A stretch of DNA of 64,000 nucleotides from Pristionchus mayeri. Taxonomy: Eukaryota; Nematoda; Chromadorea; Rhabditida; Neodiplogasteridae. Within the stretch, counting starts at the first letter, position 1. Each line of letters begins with the position of its first letter. Where the stretch lies: positions 34,205,469 to 34,269,468 of the forward strand of contig BTRK01000005.1 in the NCBI GenBank assembly GCA_036245805.1, given 5' to 3'. Both the position numbers and the translations under genes were made by a program. The notes under the pieces are model-generated. The model made no database searches and was not told the origin of the DNA. It saw only the letters and a list, made by a program, of their open reading frames with translations. Below, piece after piece: positions 19,426 to 32,200 of this stretch.

Positions 19426-22400
19426 CTATTCGAAAGGGGTCAACAGGCCATCCCTTCCCACTCCAGATCATCAATCAAGTGATGTTATTCGTTAAGAGAT
19501 CCGCTGAGGAGGTATTAGTAATAAAATAATCATCTTATTATTTTTACTAATTACGTTTTACTAATTACGCTATTTATTTGAGATTGTATTGAAAAATTGA
19601 CGAATGAAAATTTATTAATAAATCAAAAAAAATGTTATTTTCAAAATAACAATTTAATGTTATTTTCAAAATAACGACGGTGATTATCGTAAATCGCATA
19701 TGCGGACTACCATTTTACTTTCCACATTTTTTCATTCCAGAGGGATCGAGGAAGGCTTCTCGAGCTAGTGAAGAAAGAGGGCGCGAAGAAGGTACAAATT
19801 AATTAACCTTTCCTCATTTAATTATGACTTCATGATTGTTTATCTGGAATTATGTAACTTTCATACCTTCTGAACATGCGCTCATGGTGGACTTGGAAAG
19901 AAAGAAAAAAACGATTCAAGGTTATATAATTTTCTAGATTTCCCATTTTGGGAATAGTATTTACATAAGATTTAAGGTAAGAAAAAAATTAACGTGTTTA
20001 GGTCTGATCATAAGATAAGGTAGTCCTCGATTCGTGAAATATCTATTTTCCAATAACAGAAATGCATGTTTTTGTCATTGCGATAACGATTGGATATTTC
20101 TAAATTTCTTCAAAATGACATTTTTTATTGTAGGTGCCGACTCTCGACGCTATCCTCAAACTCGAGGATGTGGAGAACACTCTAAAGGAGTTCAAAAAGG
20201 CGTTGAAAAGAGGGAAGCTGGTGCACTCGAGCATATTCCACTTCCATAATAGAGATGGGTAAACCGATGAAAAAAAAGTGGACAGGGTGAGTATAAAATT
20301 TATTTCTTGTCTATTATGATTTTCTAGAGTTTAAAGAAGAAATATTACTGAAACTTCAACCGTTGGTTATCCGAAATACCTTCATTTAGGACTCGTTCGT
20401 TTTGAGATTCGACGGCACCGTCTTCCTATGGAGTTGTAGACATGACGTAAGCGATCACTTAGGCTATAGGTAATAAAAATGCATAAGCAATATGATTGCC
20501 TGAAAAAATTTCATTTGAACATCTTAATTTTGGGGTGTCCCAAAAGTTCGTGGAAAATTATGTTTTCTCGCGAAGTAAAAGTCAAGAAAACTAATCATCA
20601 TGCATATCTATTATAGCTCGACGTGGTATATTTTTGCGTAGGTTAATTCATTAAATGACCAAGTGCTCATGAAATAGTCCAAAATGTGCGTTTTTTGAAT
20701 CTTGTTTTAATAAATTATAATTTTATTCTCTTTTAAGTTTCAAAACTCTGGTTTATTGTGAATTAGAAGCCGCTATCGAACTTTCAATTAAACCTTAAAA
20801 ATTAGACCTTTCTTTATCCACGGCCGAAAAATTTCAAAACTTGCCATTTTAATCTTGTCGAGGAAAGGCCATTTTCAGAATTTTTCAAATTTTTATGGCA
20901 GTTTGCCTATCAATCGGCTCGATTTTGCAATGTAAATGTGTTTTATATTATATATTGCATTTTAGAACCTTCGTTAGTATCGAAATCAATGAAAACGTTT
21001 TAAACACGTTGAAAACTTCGAGTTTGGTAATAAAGATGCAACGCGATTCGGAAGGTCAGAATAGTGTCCAGTAAGTTACTTGGAAACTATAAAGTAACTA
21101 CGCAAAATCACATTCTATCTCTTCAAAGGAAAGAATTTCATGTTTGACTATTTTTGAGACACAACTTCGGAATCGCACAATTCTTGTAAACTTTAAAATG
21201 TCTTATATGTGCAGCCCGGAAAATGTAGAGCACTGATTGCTCTACTCAATGCTACGTATTAGTCAGTAAGAACACATCTCTTCAAAGAAAGAGATTTTTG
21301 AAAAAATCCACGACCTTTTGGGACATACAAATAATGTGGCAAATACTTTAGGTCAAGCTTAGAAAAAATAGATCAATATAAAAAGTATGAACAAAGCACG
21401 TACATTTTCCATGGGTAAGAGTGCTAATTATATGTTTAGCTCCACGCCGCCGTTGAGAAGATGATCACGAAGGAGAACCGCGAGAAGCACTTCGTCCTCC
21501 TTGTACATGGCCATGGCGGGCAAAATGCCCAGACCGCCTGGATGAACACGGATGATGGTGTCAAGGATTACTGCCAGGTCATTTTTCAACATATGATGTA
21601 TTAAAACCCGTTCTCTGTAAGACTGCAGTGAACGGGGGTATGGGTGGCACAACTCGGTCAAAATGATCGCCCGAAGCTCAAACTTGGGGAGCGTGACCCC
21701 TGGGGGAAAAGAAATTTTCAACAGAAAGTGTGACCCAAAATATCGATTTTTGATCTACCGAAATAGATTTTTTAAACTTCAGAATTCGATGTCATGCTAT
21801 AGCTCATTCGAAAGAGCATGAAAAGTTATGTCAGAAACCTGAAGGAATCCAGAATCCCTCAACGTGGACGTCATCTAGAGCTCGACATGTGACCATTTCA
21901 GCTACTTTTCGTAGATCATGACATGAATGCCCATGAAGACATGGTTAGCAAGCTCCAATTCGGAAATATATTATGTATTTTTTACCGCTTAATATAATGA
22001 AACTCTAAAATTGCCATATTTTGGGTGCGCTCCTACGCGGACGCTCACTCAACCGTGACGCCCTCAGCGACGACATTTTCCAAACTTTGGATTTCAATGT
22101 CGTGCTGTAGCTCATTCGAAAGAGCATGATAAGTTATGTCAGAAACCTGAAGGAATCCAGAATCCCTCAACGTAGACGTCATTTAGAGCTCGACATGTTA
22201 CTATTTCAGCTACTTTTCGTAGATCATCGCATGAATGCCCATGAAGACATGGTTAGCAAGCTCCAATTCGGAGATATAATATGTATTTTTTACTGCTTAA
22301 TATAATGAAGCTCTAAAATTGCAACATTTTGGGTGGGCTCCTACTCGGAAGCTCACGCAACCGTGACGCCCTCATTGACGACATTTTACAAACTTTGGAT

Positions 22401-25400
22401 TTCGGTATCGAGCGATAGCTCATTCGAAAGATCATGTAAAGTTGTTTAAGAACCTGCAAGAACACCAGAATCCCTCAACGTTGACGTCATCTAGAGCTCG
22501 ACATGTGACCATTTCAGCTACTTTTCGTAGATCATGACATGAATGCCCATGAAGACATGGTTAGCAAGCTCCAATTCGGAAATATATTATGTATTTTTTA
22601 CCGCTTAATATAATGAAACTCTAAAATTGCCATATTTTGGGTGCGCTCCTACGCGGACGCTCACTCAACCGTGACGCCCTCAGCGACGACATTTTCCAAA
22701 CTTTGGATTTCGGTATCGAGCGATAGCTCATTCGAAAGACCATGAAAAGTTATGTTAGAAACCCGTAGGAATATATAATTCCTCAAAGTTGGTATCAGTT
22801 GGAGCTTCATACGTATGATTTTGCCACTAGGCGAGATGAAAATATGGGTGGGGATTGATTGACCTCTTCATCAGTCTCATTCATGTGTGTAGATACACAT
22901 CTGTCACTATCCCGTAAAGTGGGGGATTGGGAGGGCGGGGGTTGACCCCATCAAGAGGAGGAGTAAGTTAGGGACTGCAGTCTGTACACTATTTATTCCC
23001 ATTCACCTTCATTTATCTTCTTTGCTATGGTTTCTACACATTTTTAACAAAATATATATTTAGTTGTCATTGCGAAAACGTATATTCAGAATGCACATAG
23101 GCGTCTTCTATGTCGTAGCAGTACATCTGTTCATACCAGTCTGAACTGCTATTCAAGGATCGTCTAGGAAAGAAGAGATTGGTGTAAGTATATAGTTTAA
23201 TAAAGTCGTAATGATAATTGTGTAAGCTGAACATGTATTCATTACTCTTTGCAGTGTACCGGTTGTCACATCACTGAATCCGGTCACATGAAGTTCAATC
23301 ACACTCACCCCGTGATCGACGCCGCCCTCACCAATAAAATGAGGAATTTGATTATGCCCGAGATGTTGAATGCGCTGGAAGATCCTCGTGCGAAAGCATT
23401 CATTTGTCGCCTCATTTGCGGGTACGCTTATATGTTTACAATACAATATTTTATATATTAAAAAATAGAATTGCAAATATATCCGTGCCTTATAGGATAC
23501 TTACCGGTTATGATGTAATCGAGAAAGGCTTCATCCCTTGGAGACAGCCGGATTCGTGCATGGTCAATCGAGTTTCGCAGGAGGAACATGGGCTATTTAG
23601 CACAGTCAATAACAAATCTCCGAGCGAATTGATCCAAGATAAACTGAGGAGATTCGCAAATGAGAATTCCTCGCATTCCCTAACTAACAACTCGTACTAT
23701 AATACGCATAGTGCGCAATCTCCCGTTCAAGATATTCTTGCAAAATCTAGTGAGAAAGTTATTCATCTCCCCTCCCACACCACCAAAATTGACCCCAAAA
23801 CAACCAAGGTTCCGAGTAGCAATACTATTCCCACACAAAAGCCCGGTGCAAATACTCCCCCCACAAGGGAACAAGCTAAACAACACATGGAGAAAATCAG
23901 GAATGGAGGAATTAAGATTCGTGGGTAGTAAATTGCTTATTGACACCTATAAATTGTGCAAGGGTTTTACTCTAATATATATTCCTCGATAAATTTATTC
24001 GTTTGTCATACGACAGTAAATGTCATGAAGAATGCGTGTGTTATCAGATGAATCTCGTTCGGCTCATATAAACATGGGAAGTGGGTGAATCTACTCATCT
24101 GTGGACGACCCACTTCCTGAAAGCACTTGTGTTTGCTTTCATGAGCATCACGGAGAAGAAGGCTCATTACTGTCCCGAGATCACATGTTCTGCTTCATTC
24201 GATACTGTAGACGAGTTGGAAGCGCATTGGCTGGCTGGCGTTCACTGTCCTTCTCCCATGCAAGCCACATTGAGAGACGAGTGCCTCAAGATGTATAGTG
24301 CTGGAGTAGAGAATGCACTTTCCCATCGTTTGACGCTTCCGGATGTCGATGATTCCGTCGCGGAGATGATGGACGATGATGATGACGATGACGCTCTTAC
24401 GGAATTGCGTCCTAACGCGGATATAAACGACGCAATCTCGGAATTGGAGCAGTCAGAGTATGACGAAGAGAGGAATATGGAGAAGGGATGGGCAATCAAG
24501 CAAAGGAAGGCAGTAGTCCGATTCACTGACAAGACCAAGAGATACATCGAAGAACTGTACGATCGTGGTATCACTCAGAAGAAGCATATCCCGCCTGAGG
24601 AAGCTGAGAAGATGATGGCTAATGAGAAGAGGAATGAAGTCCGTATGTTCTCGGTCGAAGAGCGACTAACTGCAAAGCAGATATTATCGCTCTACTCTCG
24701 CATTTCTGCAGCGAGAGTTGCTGCTTCAGTGTCGAAGAAGCCACGATTCAAGCGATTCATGGGAGTTGAGATGGAGAAAGAAGAGGAATTCGACGAGAAT
24801 GCGATCTTCGAGGAGGGATGGTACAACAACGATCAGGATCTTTACGTCCAGTCGATCATGGACAATCGTCACGAAATCTTCGATCTCACGCAACCTCTTG
24901 AAATCGAACACGATGAAATTTTCAAGTCGAATGATCATAGTGGAGGGCACGGGCGACACAGAAGACATCACCGCTACCCCCCACATCGTGTGTATAAGCG
25001 TGATGACTGATGTCAAGTAATATTCCATACAATTTATTCATATGCCTTCGTCGTCCTTTGTATTTTTCACATAAACATTACAGTACATTGATATGGTTCG
25101 ATAGCATTGGGGTACTTATTATAATAATCTTCGTAATTATCCGAATAGAGTATTTCAAAAATGATAAAAACATGATGAAAACTTCACCTGCGAGCTCTAC
25201 CTGTCTTCAATGTTTATGGATTCTGGGTGCAATTTCTTACATAACTTTTCAGGCTCTTCCGAATGAGCTATTACTAGATACTGAAATCTAGTATAAAAAT
25301 TTCGTCGCTGAAGACGTCACGGTTGCGTGAGCTTCCGAGTAGGAGCGCACCCAAAATGTTGCAACTTTAGAGCTTCATTTTATTAAGCGGGCAAAACTAC

Positions 25401-26170
25401 ATAATATATCTCCGAATTGGAGCTTGCTAACCATGTCTTGATGGTCATTCATGTCATGATCTACGAAAAGTAGCCGAAAAGGTCATATCTCGAGCTCTAG
25501 ATGACGTCAACGTTGAGGGATTCTGGTGTTCTTGCAGGTTCTTAAACAACTTTACATGATCTTTCGAATGAGCTATCGCTCGATACCGAAATCCAAAGTT
25601 TGTAAAATGTCGTCGCTGAGGGCGTCACGGTTGCGTGAGCTTCCGAGTAGGAGCCCACCCAAAATGTTGCAATTTTAGAGCTTCATTATATTAAGCAGTA
25701 AAAAATACATAATATATTTCCGAATTGGAGCTTTCTAACCATGTCTTCATGGGCATTCATGTCATGATCTACGAAAAGTAGCTGAAATGGTCACATGTCG
25801 AGGTCTAGATGACGTCCACGTTGAGAGATTCTGGATTCCTTCAGGTTTCTGACATAACTTTTCATGCTCTTTCGAATGAGTTATAGCACGACATCGAATT
25901 CTGAAGTTTAAAAATCGATTTCGGTAGATCAAAAATCGAAATTTGGGGTCACACTTTCGGTTGAAAATTTCTTTGCCCCCAGGGGTCACGTTCCCCAAGT
26001 TTGAGGTCTGGGCGATCATTTTGACTGAGTTGTGCCACCCTACCTGCAGTCTTACGGAGAATGGGTTTTAATTGTACTCCCTTGTTCACTAAACATTACT
26101 TTCTGCTAGCATTATAATTAGAGTTCTCTTATTGGAATGAATTGCATCATTTTCTTATATGCTTCACGCG

Positions 26171-26240
<70 letters not shown>

Positions 26241-29200
26241 TAGCGCTCAAAAGTATTGAAACGATTTGAATTTTTCATATAACTTTTTCTACCGTTGACT
26301 TAGCAAGTTCGATGTTGGGGCGCTATATACCAAACCAATAGAAGAATACGATGCGAGTATTGCGTCATCACGTGCCTCATAACTAATTGCGTAGTGATGA
26401 CGCAATCGAATTTCACTTTTTCAAACAGGCTTTATTCTTACATAGATTTTTTCCAACTCGCAACACTTTCTGTGGTTGGAGTCATGCCCGAGGCCTACCC
26501 AGAAAAAAATTATGAGGTTGCTGCGCGACCGCACGTTTGCTGCAGCCTTGCTGCAAAAAGGGGGTCTGAAATTAAGATCTCGGCTTCTAGACTAGCTAGA
26601 GACTCGTTCAAGCACCAAAATGATCTTCATCGCGATCCCAGGTGATCCTGTGAATATGGAAAGGATATTCCAAAATTTGCCCTCAGGGCATGGAAAATCA
26701 CTTTTTCACATGACCACTTTTGGAGATTCATAACTACGTAGGAACTGTATATAAAAATCTGTTTTTTGCTTAGTCATATTCATTATGTTGTATATATATG
26801 GTTCCCTACTTTTTAGATTGTTTGAATATCTTTCCTGCCCTCGGCGATCGTTTTTCGGAGGCACTTTCGAGTCCCCGGCCCGCTATTTTCGTCTGCGCTC
26901 TAACTCCAACTGTGCCCAGAGTTGTTCAAACATTTAAAAAAGTTGGGGATCAGTTCCCCAGAACAAGTTGGACTTGTACACACAATAACAAAAGTTTTCC
27001 TTAACTCTCCCGCAAACTTGTCATCGAAGGGTCATGCAATCAGAACCACGGTGCACCTCCGATAGACGATCGCCGAAGGCAGGAAAGATATTCAAACAAT
27101 CTAAAAAGTAAGGAACCATATATATACAACATAATGAATATGACTAAGCAAAAACCAGATTTTTATATACAGTTCCTACGTAGTTATGAATCTCCAAAAA
27201 AGTGGTCATGTGAAAAAGTGATTTTCCATGCCCTGAGGGCAAATTTTGGAATATCCTTTCCATATTCACAGCATTATCTGGGATCGCGATGAGGATCATT
27301 TTGGTGCTTTAAACGAGTATCTAGCTGGTCTAGAAGCTGAGATCTTAATTTCAGACCCCCTTTTTGCAGCAAGGCTGCAGCAAACGTGCGGTCGCGCAGC
27401 AACCTCATAATTGTTTTCTGGGTAGGCCTCGGGCATGACTCCAACCACAGAAAGTGTGGCGAGTTGGAAAAATCTATGTAAGAATACAGCCTGTTTGAAA
27501 AAGTGAAATTCGATTGCGTCATCACTACGCAATTAGTTATGAGGCACGTGATGACGCAATACTCGCATCGTATTCTTCTATTGGTTTGGTATATAGCGCC
27601 CCAACATCGAACTTGCTAAGTCAACGGTAGAAAAAGTTATATGAAAAATTCAAATCGTTTCAATACTTTTGAGCGCTACTGTCTACAGTCGCGCCGGAAA
27701 GTCACCGTACACTTTTCGAATTTGTTGTATCTTTTTGCCCAGGAAATGCATCATTCTGGCACTCAGGTATGATGTACCAAATTCATCGGAGATTATGATC
27801 ATGATATTATGGTATGACGTCATCGCATAGTTATTGCGTAGTGATGACGCAATCAAACGGCACTTTTTTCAAAACGGCATTATTCTTACATAGATTTTTC
27901 CTGTTCGCCATACTTTCGATGATTGGAGATATGACCGAGGACTACCCAGAATAAATTTTTGAAAGTGCTGCTCGGTCGCACATTGGCTGCAGCCGTGCTG
28001 CAAAAACATGGTCCGAAATTCAGATATCGGCTTCTAGAGTAGCTAGAGACCAGTTCAAATCATCAAAATGATCGCCATCATGAGTAAACATAATCCTGAG
28101 AATATGAATACGATATCTCATAATTTGCCCTCAGGGCATGAACAAATCACTTTTTTGCATGACCATTATTTGGACATCCTTAACTGTACGGAAAAGTTTA
28201 GTAAAAATCTGATTTTTATCTGGTAATGTTCAAAATGTATTGAAGAACTGAATTCCAACTTTTTAGAGCGGTTGGATATCTTTCCAGCCCGCGGCGTGCG
28301 TTTTTCGGAGGAATACTAGAGTCGGAAAACAACCTGTTTACGCAATCTCGTCGTCTGCACTCTCTCGCCCATAGGGGTAAACAAGGTGTTCTCCGACCCT
28401 AGTATACCTCCGAAAAACGCACGCCGCGGGCTGGAAAGATATCCAAAAGCTCTAAAAAGTTGGAATACAGTTCTTCAATACATTTTGAACATTACCAGAT
28501 AAAAATCAGATTTTTACTAAACTTTTCCGTACAGTTATGGATGTCCAAATAATGGTCATGCAAAAAAGTGATTTGTTCATGCCCTGAGGGCAAATTATGA
28601 GATATCGTATTCATATTCTCAGGATTATGTTTACTCATGATGGCGATCATTTTGATGCTTTGAACTGGTCTCTAGCTACTCTAGAAGCCGAGTTCCGAAT
28701 TTCAGATCCTGTTTTTGCAGCTTCGCTGCAGCAAATGTGCGACCGAGCAGCACCTTCAAAAATTTATTCTGGGTAGGCCTCGGTCATATCTCCAATCATC
28801 GAAAGTATGGCGAACAGGAAAAATCTATGTAAGAATAATGCCGTTTTGAAAAAAGTGCCGTTTGATTGCGTCATCACTACGCAATAACTATGCGATGACG
28901 TCATACCATAATATCATGATCATAATCTCCGATGGATTTGGTACATCATACCTGAGTGCCAGAATGATGCATTTCCTGGGCAAAAAGATACAACAAATTT
29001 AAAAAGTGTACAGTGACTTTCAGGCGCGACTGTACAGGGTGCGAGAAAAGTATGGTGACAAGTCTTTTATGTAATATCTCGCGAAGTAATGATAGCATAG
29101 ATTTCTGCTTTCGCCATTGTATGCCTGCGAACAGTACCTCCAACAATTTTATCACAGTTCCCCATCTATCGATTTTGTCTTTCAGAGCTTTTCGATTTTC

Positions 29201-32200
29201 AAGTTCGAAAAAATGGGCCCTTGGCCCGCAGCTCATTTCTCTTTAATTAATAATAAAAAATCTTCGGATAATAATTCCCCCGCTTTCTCAACTTGAGTAT
29301 GGAGAGCAACCATTCCTCTTTAAAGTATACTTGTTTAGGCGGAAATACGATATCAGGAAACGGAGAAATATGAAAATAACTGCATGACACTGATATGGAA
29401 TTATCTTTTTGAAAAATCACATTTTCGAATTTCTTTCTCAGCAACCATATATTGAGATATAAACTTGTATGTTATATGCAAGGACCTAATTATGAATTTT
29501 AGTAGCGTCAAACTGAATGAAAACATGGTTTAAACTACTGAACCATACATGAGAAAATATGGCTGAAAACGACACTTGGGACAGATTCGAAACTTGTACA
29601 GAACAAGATTCACTTTCACAATTTAGACTGAAAGCATATTTACACTACTGAATGGGCGTGTACCATAATACATACGTTTATATTTTTCTATCATTCTTAT
29701 TTGATGGACGCGACATCTTTATTCGAGAAAATTTTTTCGAGGGCCGTTCGTCACAGCTTACTTTTAAATATTTTTAAGCTGTATAACAAAATCTCCAAAT
29801 TAAATGGACACATATTTAGACTCGGGCACAAGTGCCCTTCTTAAGAAAAAATAATGGAATGCGCCACCTATTACATTGTTGTAATGCGGCATTAAAGAAT
29901 ACGACTCATGCAGTGAGAGAAACATGATCGTTTTTCTTCACTAAATTTTTAATAAATTAAATCTCGTAATCTAAAAGAAATATTTGTTTGATACATGAGC
30001 GCTAAATAGCTACATAGCTAAGGTACATGGTGCAAAAAATTGGGATAAATTAAAACACTGCGCACCAAGTGGGGCTTAATTGAATTGTGTCACAATACTT
30101 TTCTCGCACCCTGTATATACAGTAGCGCCAGAAAGTTTGTAGACGATTTGTAATTTTGATATAACTTTCGCTACAGTTGATATAGCAAGTTAGATGATGG
30201 GGCGCTATATACCAAATCCATCGACGAATACGATGCGTATACTGCGTCATCACTTGCATCATCACGTATTGCGTAGTGATGACGCAATCGAACAACACTT
30301 TTCAAACATCTATTATTCTTACATAGATTTTTTCCTGCTGGCCAAACTTTCTGAGGTTGGAGTCACGACTGAGGCCTACCCAGAATAAATTTTTAAAATT
30401 GCTGCGCGGTCGCACATTGGTCTTGGCTTCTAGACTAGCTAGAGACTCGTTCAAAGCGTCAAAATGATCTACAACATGAGTCCAGATGATCCTGAGAATA
30501 TGAAAACAATATCTCGAATTTTGCAGCCAGGGCACGAAAAAATCACTTTTTTGGATGACCATTTTTTGGCCATTCATAATTATGTGGGACATGTAGGTAA
30601 AAATCTGGTTTTTACATAGGAATGTTCAAAATGTATTGACGATCTGATTCCCACCGTTTTAGAGCGATTCGATACCTTTCCTGCCCGCGGCGTTCGTGTT
30701 TCTAAGGTATACTAGGGTCGGGAAAACCTTGTTTACCCCTATGAGCGAGAGAGTACAGGCGTAAACAAGGTGTTTCCCGGCCCTAGTATACCTTAGAAAC
30801 ACGAACGCCGCGGGCAGGAAAGGTATCGAATCGCTCTAAAACGGTGGGAATCCTATCTTTAATACATTGTGAACATTCCTATGCGAAAACCAGATTTTTA
30901 TCTACATGTCCCACATAATTATGAATGGCCAAAAAATGGTCATCCAAAAAAGTGATTTTTTCGTCCCTGAGGGCAAATTTCGAGATATTGTTTTCATATT
31001 CATAGGATCATCTGGACTCATTATGGCGATCCTTTTGACGCATTGAACGAGTCTCTAGCTATTCTAGAAGCCGATATCTGAATTTCGGACCATGTTTTTG
31101 CAGCACGGCTGCAGCCAATGTGCGACCGCGCAGCAATTTCAAAAAATTATTCTGGGTAGGCCTCAGTCATGACTCCAACCTCAGAAAGTTTGGCCAGCAG
31201 GAAAAAATCTATGTAAGAATAATGGATGTTTGAAAAAGTGTTGTTCGATTGCGTCATCACTACGCAATACGTGATGATGCAAGTGATGACGCAATATACG
31301 CATCGTATTCCACGATGGATTTGGTATATAGTGCCCCAACATCTAACTTGATAAATCAACTGTAGCGAAAGTTATATCAAAATTACAAATCGTCTACAAA
31401 CTTTCTGGCGCTACTGTATATATATATATATATTGCACGTGAAACATATATGAAAATGATGCAATTCATTCCAATAAGATTCCAACAAGAGAACACTAAT
31501 TATAATTCTATCAAAAATTTTATTACGATTTCAGGAGTGCTCCTCCACCAACCTCATCCGCGATGACGTCTTCATACAGAAATTGATCAATCTCAACCAC
31601 AAGCCTGGGATTTCCGTCTTCCTTCTGCACTGCAGGAATGGTCAGTCAATTAATGGCTTATTTAAAGAGTTGAGAGAAAGTGAAGCTATTTTTAATGAAA
31701 GATATATTATTTAATGTGAAAAGAGATTGATCTAATGACCGCTCGCTAATTAACAAATCTCGATCGCAGCGCACCCCTCCGCCCCTCCGCCCACTCTCCT
31801 CGCCCAGCCTCTCGGCAACAAGGCGGTGAGAGTCTGCTTCGGCGCTCTGCCCGGGTTTCAAATGTTCTTCCGTCCCCTGGACCCTACGAGTCAGAGAATC
31901 CTCAGGGTAAGATTTACCGTTTAGTATCCATGTCAAACAACATCGTGTAGTATCACATACTGTACAATAAAAGGTGATGGTACACGTTGTAACTTTTATT
32001 TCGTAAGTTTCCGTATGAGATCATTATTTTTGAACTTGTCGCTTTTTATGATACAAAAATATGTGAAAAGCTTAAATGCGTTTTAAGAAAATTAAAAAAA
32101 ATGCAAAAATGAAAAAAAAATTCCTAAACGACCAGCACCAAGAAAAACCAAGAAAAATGTTCCAATACGATTAGCTCCAAAATGCCGGTTCCAATTTGTG

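Follow-up and report, generated by a model that had tools for sequence, protein, structure and literature searches.

A non-autonomous TTAA-flanked transposon of Pristionchus mayeri with tandem-repeat arms and a putative transposase remnant

Positions 21601 to 26071 of a 64,000-nucleotide stretch of the genome of the nematode Pristionchus mayeri (assembly GCA_036245805.1, contig BTRK01000005.1, positions 34,205,469 to 34,269,468; hereafter the window) are a real, mobile element, and the copy found there is non-autonomous. Our preferred reading, to which we give a probability of roughly 0.85, is that it belongs to a family of TTAA-targeting cut-and-paste nematode transposons and carries a captured gene together with a transposase lacking its catalytic core. 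The element has inverted ends related to many others in the genome, arms built of tandem 308-base-pair (bp) units, and two genes, with the following parts.

21601 to 26071, no strand assigned: whole element including both TTAA (inverted ends, TTAA on each side, genome-wide end matches)
21601 to 21775, plus strand: left terminal block, long type (end B, TGGCACAA block 45 bp from the edge; end comparison)
21767 to 22786, plus strand: left arm, 3.3 tandem units of 308 bp (88% matches)
21802 to 21839, plus strand: first copy of the subterminal 38-bp motif, 202 bp from the left edge (motif scan)
23091 to 23183, plus strand: gene 1 exon 1, signal-peptide-like by eye (splice sites checked, paralogue comparison)
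23255 to 23421, plus strand: gene 1 exon 2, the Cys/His exon (splice sites checked, paralogue comparison)
23496 to 23928, plus strand: gene 1 exon 3 to the stop (splice sites checked, paralogue comparison)
24141 to 25010, plus strand: gene 2, putative C-terminal transposase part, catalytic core absent (homology to longer relatives, open frame)
25233 to 25915, minus strand: right arm, 2.2 tandem units of 308 bp, inverted (84% matches)
25907 to 26071, minus strand: right terminal block, short type (end A, TGGCACAA block 35 bp from the edge; end comparison)

Many copies share the ends and the TTAA

The element is 4467 bp long with one TTAA counted, and it begins with TTAAAACCCGTTCTC at 21601 on the plus strand and with the near-identical TTAAAACCCATTCTC at 26071 on the minus strand. 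Its terminal inverted repeats are 29 bp long and 93% complementary, the outer arms match over 134 bp (92%) and the inner arms over 619 bp (91-93%). Inverted-repeat and flank analysis thus confirmed the mirrored ends, arms and TTAA at both edges that an initial annotation, made from the window alone, had reported; the 308-bp period that it gave for the arms also held, while its unit counts are corrected to 3.3 on the left and 2.2 on the right.

The whole genome (290.8 Mb in 73 contigs) was searched with the 28-bp end pattern TTAAAACCCRTTCTCYSTAAGAMTGCAG, allowing up to two mismatches. There are 229 matches per strand and none to the reversed pattern used as a control, which places the end pattern far from chance, and 350 bp of the left end, used as a query, matched at least 132 times. 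The initial annotation had proposed a search for other copies by their ends, with a lack of such copies as a refuting outcome; many were found, and the annotation was not refuted on this count. Our sample consisted of 20 stretches fetched around end matches and eight around distant homologues of gene 2 (labels beginning with L are ours for genomic loci). Both ends were present in 14 of the 20 end-match stretches, making 17 elements with the window copy, L032 and L034; these have CCC-type (or GCC) tips and range from 774 to 8446 bp. Five of the eight stretches around distant gene-2 homologues proved to be sister elements, with the tips TTAAAACGCTGTCTC or TTAAAACGCGTTCTC. TTAA flanks 21 of the 22 elements whose two ends were read; the exception is L013, with AAAA on the left.

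Arms repeat a subterminal motif, and the two ends differ

The 38-bp motif was found in all 19 ends of a first test (nine elements plus the right end of L053), with 0-9 mismatches and at either 191-193 or 200-203 bp from the edge, compared with 0/3000 in base shuffles of six sister ends. When all 44 ends of the 22 elements are considered, a 26-bp core of the motif falls into one of the two position classes, of about 192 and 202 bp, at 42 of them, and is closer to the edge in the left end of L015 (175) and the right end of L024 (165). Apart from this, similarity between the families over the region is confined to short pieces or amounts to about 70%.

Arms measure 0.3-22.7 units of 308 bp each by BLAST coverage. 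In the four elements that were checked along their whole length, the motif recurs at a spacing of about 308 bp, once per unit, so lengthening an arm multiplies the motif: the two arms hold 4 + 3 copies in the window element, 4 + 4 in L010, 24 + 2 in L017 and 1 + 21 in L018. In the left arm of the window element further copies lie 510, 818 and 1126 bp from the left edge, and in the right arm copies lie 191, 499 and 804 bp from the right edge. L017 (184-8633) and L018 (2417-9757) consist mostly of 308-bp arrays, with 22.7 and 20.4 units on one arm, and resemble the start of a satellite DNA.

The two ends of an element also differ from each other. With one mismatch allowed, the TGGCACAA block stands at a distance of 35-36 bp from the edge at one end, termed A, and of 44-46 bp at the opposite end, termed B. 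The letters of the B spacer vary between families, and its extra length of 9-11 bp is kept. An A end is paired with a B end in 20 of the 21 elements having both blocks, and a further ten single ends are all of type A or type B. The exception, L011, carries B at both ends; its two flanks repeat each other in inverted orientation, and also repeat the flank of L022, so that L011 and L022 (C4:34370883-34381907) are possibly an inverted duplication. Gene 2 points to end B in L045, L046 and L047 and to end A in the window element, L032, L034, L048 and L052.

Gene 2 as a putative transposase remnant

Gene 2 runs from an ATG at 24141 to a stop ending at 25010 and encodes 289 residues with a C2H2 finger and a predicted helix-turn-helix, in agreement with the 289-residue zinc-finger gene of the initial annotation. 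Alignment to longer relatives that have a catalytic core shows it to be the C-terminal remnant of the element family's transposase, presumably the DNA-binding part. These relatives come from Pristionchus, oysters, corals and lancelets, and in them a D-D-E/D core of RNase H-like type lies N-terminal to the part that corresponds to gene 2. The family has 259 animal proteins at E 0.001 (120 listed), and the named proteins closest to it are from Pristionchus. An RNase H-like fold with an acidic triad is present in the relative P0014, where we placed the third acidic residue at 266 from the alignment, and is missing from the window copy. That no DDE motif could be seen is true of this copy, as neither its open frames nor genome searches with core probes reveal a catalytic core in the element. 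Nine family sequences (L049, two L050 exons, L051, P0004, P0008, P0012, P0014 and P0015) contain no transposase Pfam domain, and piggyBac DDE_Tnp_1_7 gave no hit in them at E 1.

Matches to the core are fewer than matches to the finger. A 45-amino-acid probe from between the aspartates of L053 found three places in the genome (itself and two at 42% and 47%), compared with 42 for a 45-amino-acid L053 finger probe searched alike; at 69% identity or more there is one core place against 17 finger places (two of which may be one copy on an unplaced contig), although these ratios are rough because the two regions may change at different rates. In 16 of the 17 finger matches the matched stretch contains no stop. 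A 130-amino-acid core probe from L050 gave 23 genome matches.

L055 (C6:47230800-47236400) is a degenerate-looking transposase relative with a mollusc-like N-terminal region and no matching ends, and the Pristionchus pacificus gene model P0012 joins the transposase region to biotin-enzyme domains, through either an annotation fusion or a real chimera. Transposase open frames that we assign by their motifs to the Tc1/mariner type lie in or beside elements at L011 609-1187, L018 1125-1760, L026 6632-7048, L027 1224-2229 and L053 927-1340.

Selection on gene 2

The ratio of nonsynonymous to synonymous substitution rates (dN/dS) in gene 2 was compared with neutral simulations, 2000 runs per pair. 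The window copy gives 0.16 with L030, which has two stops (0/2000 neutral runs), and 0.10-0.13 with L032, L033 and L034 (0/2000 for window-L033); pairs with L052 or L053 give 0.16-0.21 (0/2000 for both L047-L053 and L052-L053). Among L045, L046 and L047, none of which has a core match, the ratio is 0.37 for L045-L046 (1/2000, P 0.0005), 0.31 for L045-L047 (0/2000) and 0.64 for L046-L047, a pair that shares a junction and in which 51 differences leave low power (P 0.18). L032, L033 and L034 share a frameshift and have ratios of 1.0-1.1 among themselves (P 0.67 for L032-L033, 0.73 for L033-L034). The 5' breakpoints of gene 2, read from translations, differ among the window copy, L030 and L034, so older selection can belong to full-length ancestors. 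The simplest reading is that selection acted on full-length ancestors and was weaker or absent after truncation, and the gene 2 of the window copy is more probably left over than maintained by selection.

Gene 1 as a probable captured host gene

The initial annotation described gene 1 as a spliced Cys/His protein; splicing is upheld, with three exons. Window gene 1 is probably a pseudogene because exon 1 contains an in-frame TGA at 23142-23144. Exon 2 has four genome matches and exon 3 two, itself and C4:13564179 (49% over 50 amino acids), and the widest search, made from L042, gave seven matches at six loci, three of them in elements; C4:19653909 is among the loci matched. L041 (C4:13563940) and L042 (C4:2324832) hold the same three-exon gene with introns at matching places and first exons that are signal-peptide-like by eye, and there is no end or arm sequence within 1.5 kb of either. 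The L034 element holds a different gene-1 paralogue, of which exon 1, intron 1 and a portion of exon 2 are joined to transposase sequence; gene 1 was not found in the remaining elements at E 0.001. Amino acid identities in exon 2 are 91% for window-L021, 78% for window-L041, 39% for window-L042, 34% for window-L034 and 41% for L034-L042.

These comparisons make it most likely that gene 1 was captured from the host, introns included, and comes from a small family of secreted-looking proteins; the retained introns imply that DNA was captured. Two uptakes from one host gene family are likely, the alternative being a single old uptake followed by fast divergence. The initial annotation had offered a non-autonomous element with cargo as one possibility, and this stands; its pairing of the two genes as accessory proteins finds no support, gene 2 being a transposase remnant and gene 1 most likely a captured gene.

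Surroundings of the window element

Insertion in an intron, as initially annotated, could not be established: a 54-codon open frame (21440-21601) stops at the left edge, and no next exon was found. This frame contains LVHGHGG, which we take to be lipase-like. About 100 bp past the right edge lies a perfect (TA)33 run (26172-26237), and after it (26246-31500) come dispersed repeats with recurring translations on the two strands.

Discussion

On our preferred reading, a full-length transposase would act on the window element in trans, either supplied by copies like C3:40875 or now lost. The C2H2/helix-turn-helix half of this enzyme would bind the terminal block and the subterminal motif, and an A (short) end would be brought together with a B (long) end, the offset between them being roughly a turn of the helix, followed by excision at TTAA and insertion at another TTAA. 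Unequal exchange could multiply the 308-bp units, and internal deletion or replacement could put host DNA in place of the catalytic half.

Several observations weigh against this reading. No copy with window-type (CCC) ends in the DNA read has a catalytic core, and the helper is postulated from a related core-bearing locus that is CGC-type and of which only the right end was found. Foldseek matches for the core are weak (best E 3.4e-3). When the joined flanks of the 22 elements were compared with the fetched DNA, no empty site was seen, the sole spanning hit (L025) being L025 itself. L035, a close gene-2 copy, has no arm or end within 1.5 kb. The split in gene-2 direction between L045-L047 and the other five elements could mean that the interior was inverted or that end types were exchanged. 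The direction of capture of gene 1 rests on L041 and L042 having no element ends or arms within 1.5 kb. Finally, the selection tests leave room for a role of truncated gene 2, and if the ancestor of L045-L047 was already core-less, selection would have acted on a core-less protein.

Sola3 elements target TTAA, and Sola3 is our leading candidate name for the transposase family. The parts of the cited papers on which our comparisons draw describe Sola3 as having 4-bp duplications, a DDD-type transposase and terminal repeats of 11-1124 bp (PMC10741241), and Sola-3 as among the most over-represented DNA transposons in single-exon transcripts of P. pacificus (PMC9297572); the first description agrees with our family in the 4-bp duplications, the DDD transposase and the arm length, and the window element itself has a 4-bp TTAA and terminal repeats within that range. 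The portions of PMC6004289, PMC5199201, PMC8634313 and PMC10294476 that we drew on do not settle the family name. piggyBac shares TTAA and has asymmetric ends, one with an insertion relative to the other, that are required in cells, and its C-terminal zinc-binding domain reads an internal repeat (PMC7351741, in part). We infer that the A/B asymmetry parallels that of piggyBac. However, the tips are different, no piggyBac Pfam domain was hit in the nine sequences scanned, a C2H2 finger and predicted helix-turn-helix stand in place of the cysteine-rich domain, and the offset is 9-11 bp rather than 17 bp plus a duplication. Kolobok combines TTAA with 5'-RR tips and in some lineages has second proteins (PMC9587614, in part). 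The window element has TTAA and 5'-AA tips, in line with the RR rule, but the C/DxxH between the second D and the last acidic residue is absent in our alignment (with the third acidic residue placed at 266), and there is no THAP hit in the sequences scanned, some of which possibly lack the N-terminus.

The other parts also have known counterparts, again as given in parts of the sources. Tetris has long inverted arms of tandem units of about 220 bp and duplications of 8-10 bp, Galileo arm repeats are reported to contain extra transposase sites (both PMC4079207), and Tm1 is a nematode foldback-type element with composite arms of variable length and 9 bp duplications (PMC3169594). Long inverted arms of tandem units are common to these and to our family, in which the number of units varies and which differs in its TTAA and its transposase. 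Pack-TYPE plant transposons are non-autonomous and carry host coding DNA (PMC8903248); gene 1 is likewise carried in a non-autonomous element and has paralogues outside elements, the direction of capture being presumed, but here the host is a nematode and a transposase part is retained beside the captured gene. The 'undescribed system' of the initial annotation is therefore too strong, since the parts belong to known kinds (a TTAA DDE/D transposon, foldback-type tandem arms and gene capture), even though the nine family sequences have no transposase Pfam domain. A literature search found no description of this element, which does not prove that none exists.

Gene 2 might instead be kept by selection as a trans-acting regulator that blocks or titrates the full enzyme while still binding the ends, and the KP repressor of the P element is a precedent for such a truncated transposase. 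The window copy has an uninterrupted frame of 289 codons; of the 17 finger matches in the L053 subfamily (at least 69% identity), 16 are free of stops in the matched stretch while the core is kept at only one place; dN/dS is 0.16 for window-L030 and 0.10-0.13 for the window copy with L032-L034; and L045 evolves non-neutrally relative to L046 and L047 (P 0.0005; 0/2000) though all three are without a core match. We nevertheless consider a selected regulator unlikely, given that L046-L047, which share a junction, are not distinguishable from neutral (P 0.18, low power with 51 differences), that differing 5' breakpoints allow older selection on full-length ancestors, and that L032-L034, which have a frameshift in common, evolve neutrally, meaning that a broken gene 2 does not keep copies from spreading. 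A related idea that seems to us decidedly unlikely is a two-part parasite, in which short copies retain and propagate nothing of the transposase but its DNA-binding half and assemble their arms from repeats of a binding motif. If this is true, short copies would attract the full enzyme, the bound half-protein would keep it off rival copies, and some copies would fill the freed slot with host genes of one secreted family.

The remaining alternatives concern where the genes came from. Gene 1 could be native to the transposon, with L041 and L042 as old element remnants or domesticated copies, which would account for its position in the same slot, from left arm to gene 2, in the window element and, as a different paralogue, in L034, and for its presence inside L021. 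Yet it was not found in other elements at E 0.001, L041 and L042 have signal-peptide-like first exons and lack element ends and arms within 1.5 kb, and the widest search gave seven matches at six loci, three of them in elements. We hold a native origin to be very unlikely. More improbable still is mobilisation of the family by an unrelated TTAA transposase, of piggyBac or Kolobok type, with gene 2 as a fragment captured from some other element: TTAA and 5'-AA tips do agree with the Kolobok rule of TTAA plus RR (PMC9587614, in part), but the same part of gene 2 is present in five sister-family elements whose tips are related, and a core-bearing locus has the same right end.

On the reading that we prefer, the window element is of an ordinary kind, a non-autonomous transposon copy, with unusually informative anatomy. 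Candidate features for testing are the detached DNA-binding half, the motif-multiplying arms and the A/B ends. A transposase family with many animal relatives would gain candidate catalytic residues, a candidate DNA-binding half, a candidate binding motif at fixed spacing and a piggyBac-like end asymmetry, and the anatomy of the ends gives a hint of what the enzyme recognises. The arms illustrate how foldback-type elements can lengthen, one subterminal unit being multiplied and its motif with it, and the copies that carry gene 1 provide a case of a nematode transposon family in which at least two forms from a single host gene family are present.
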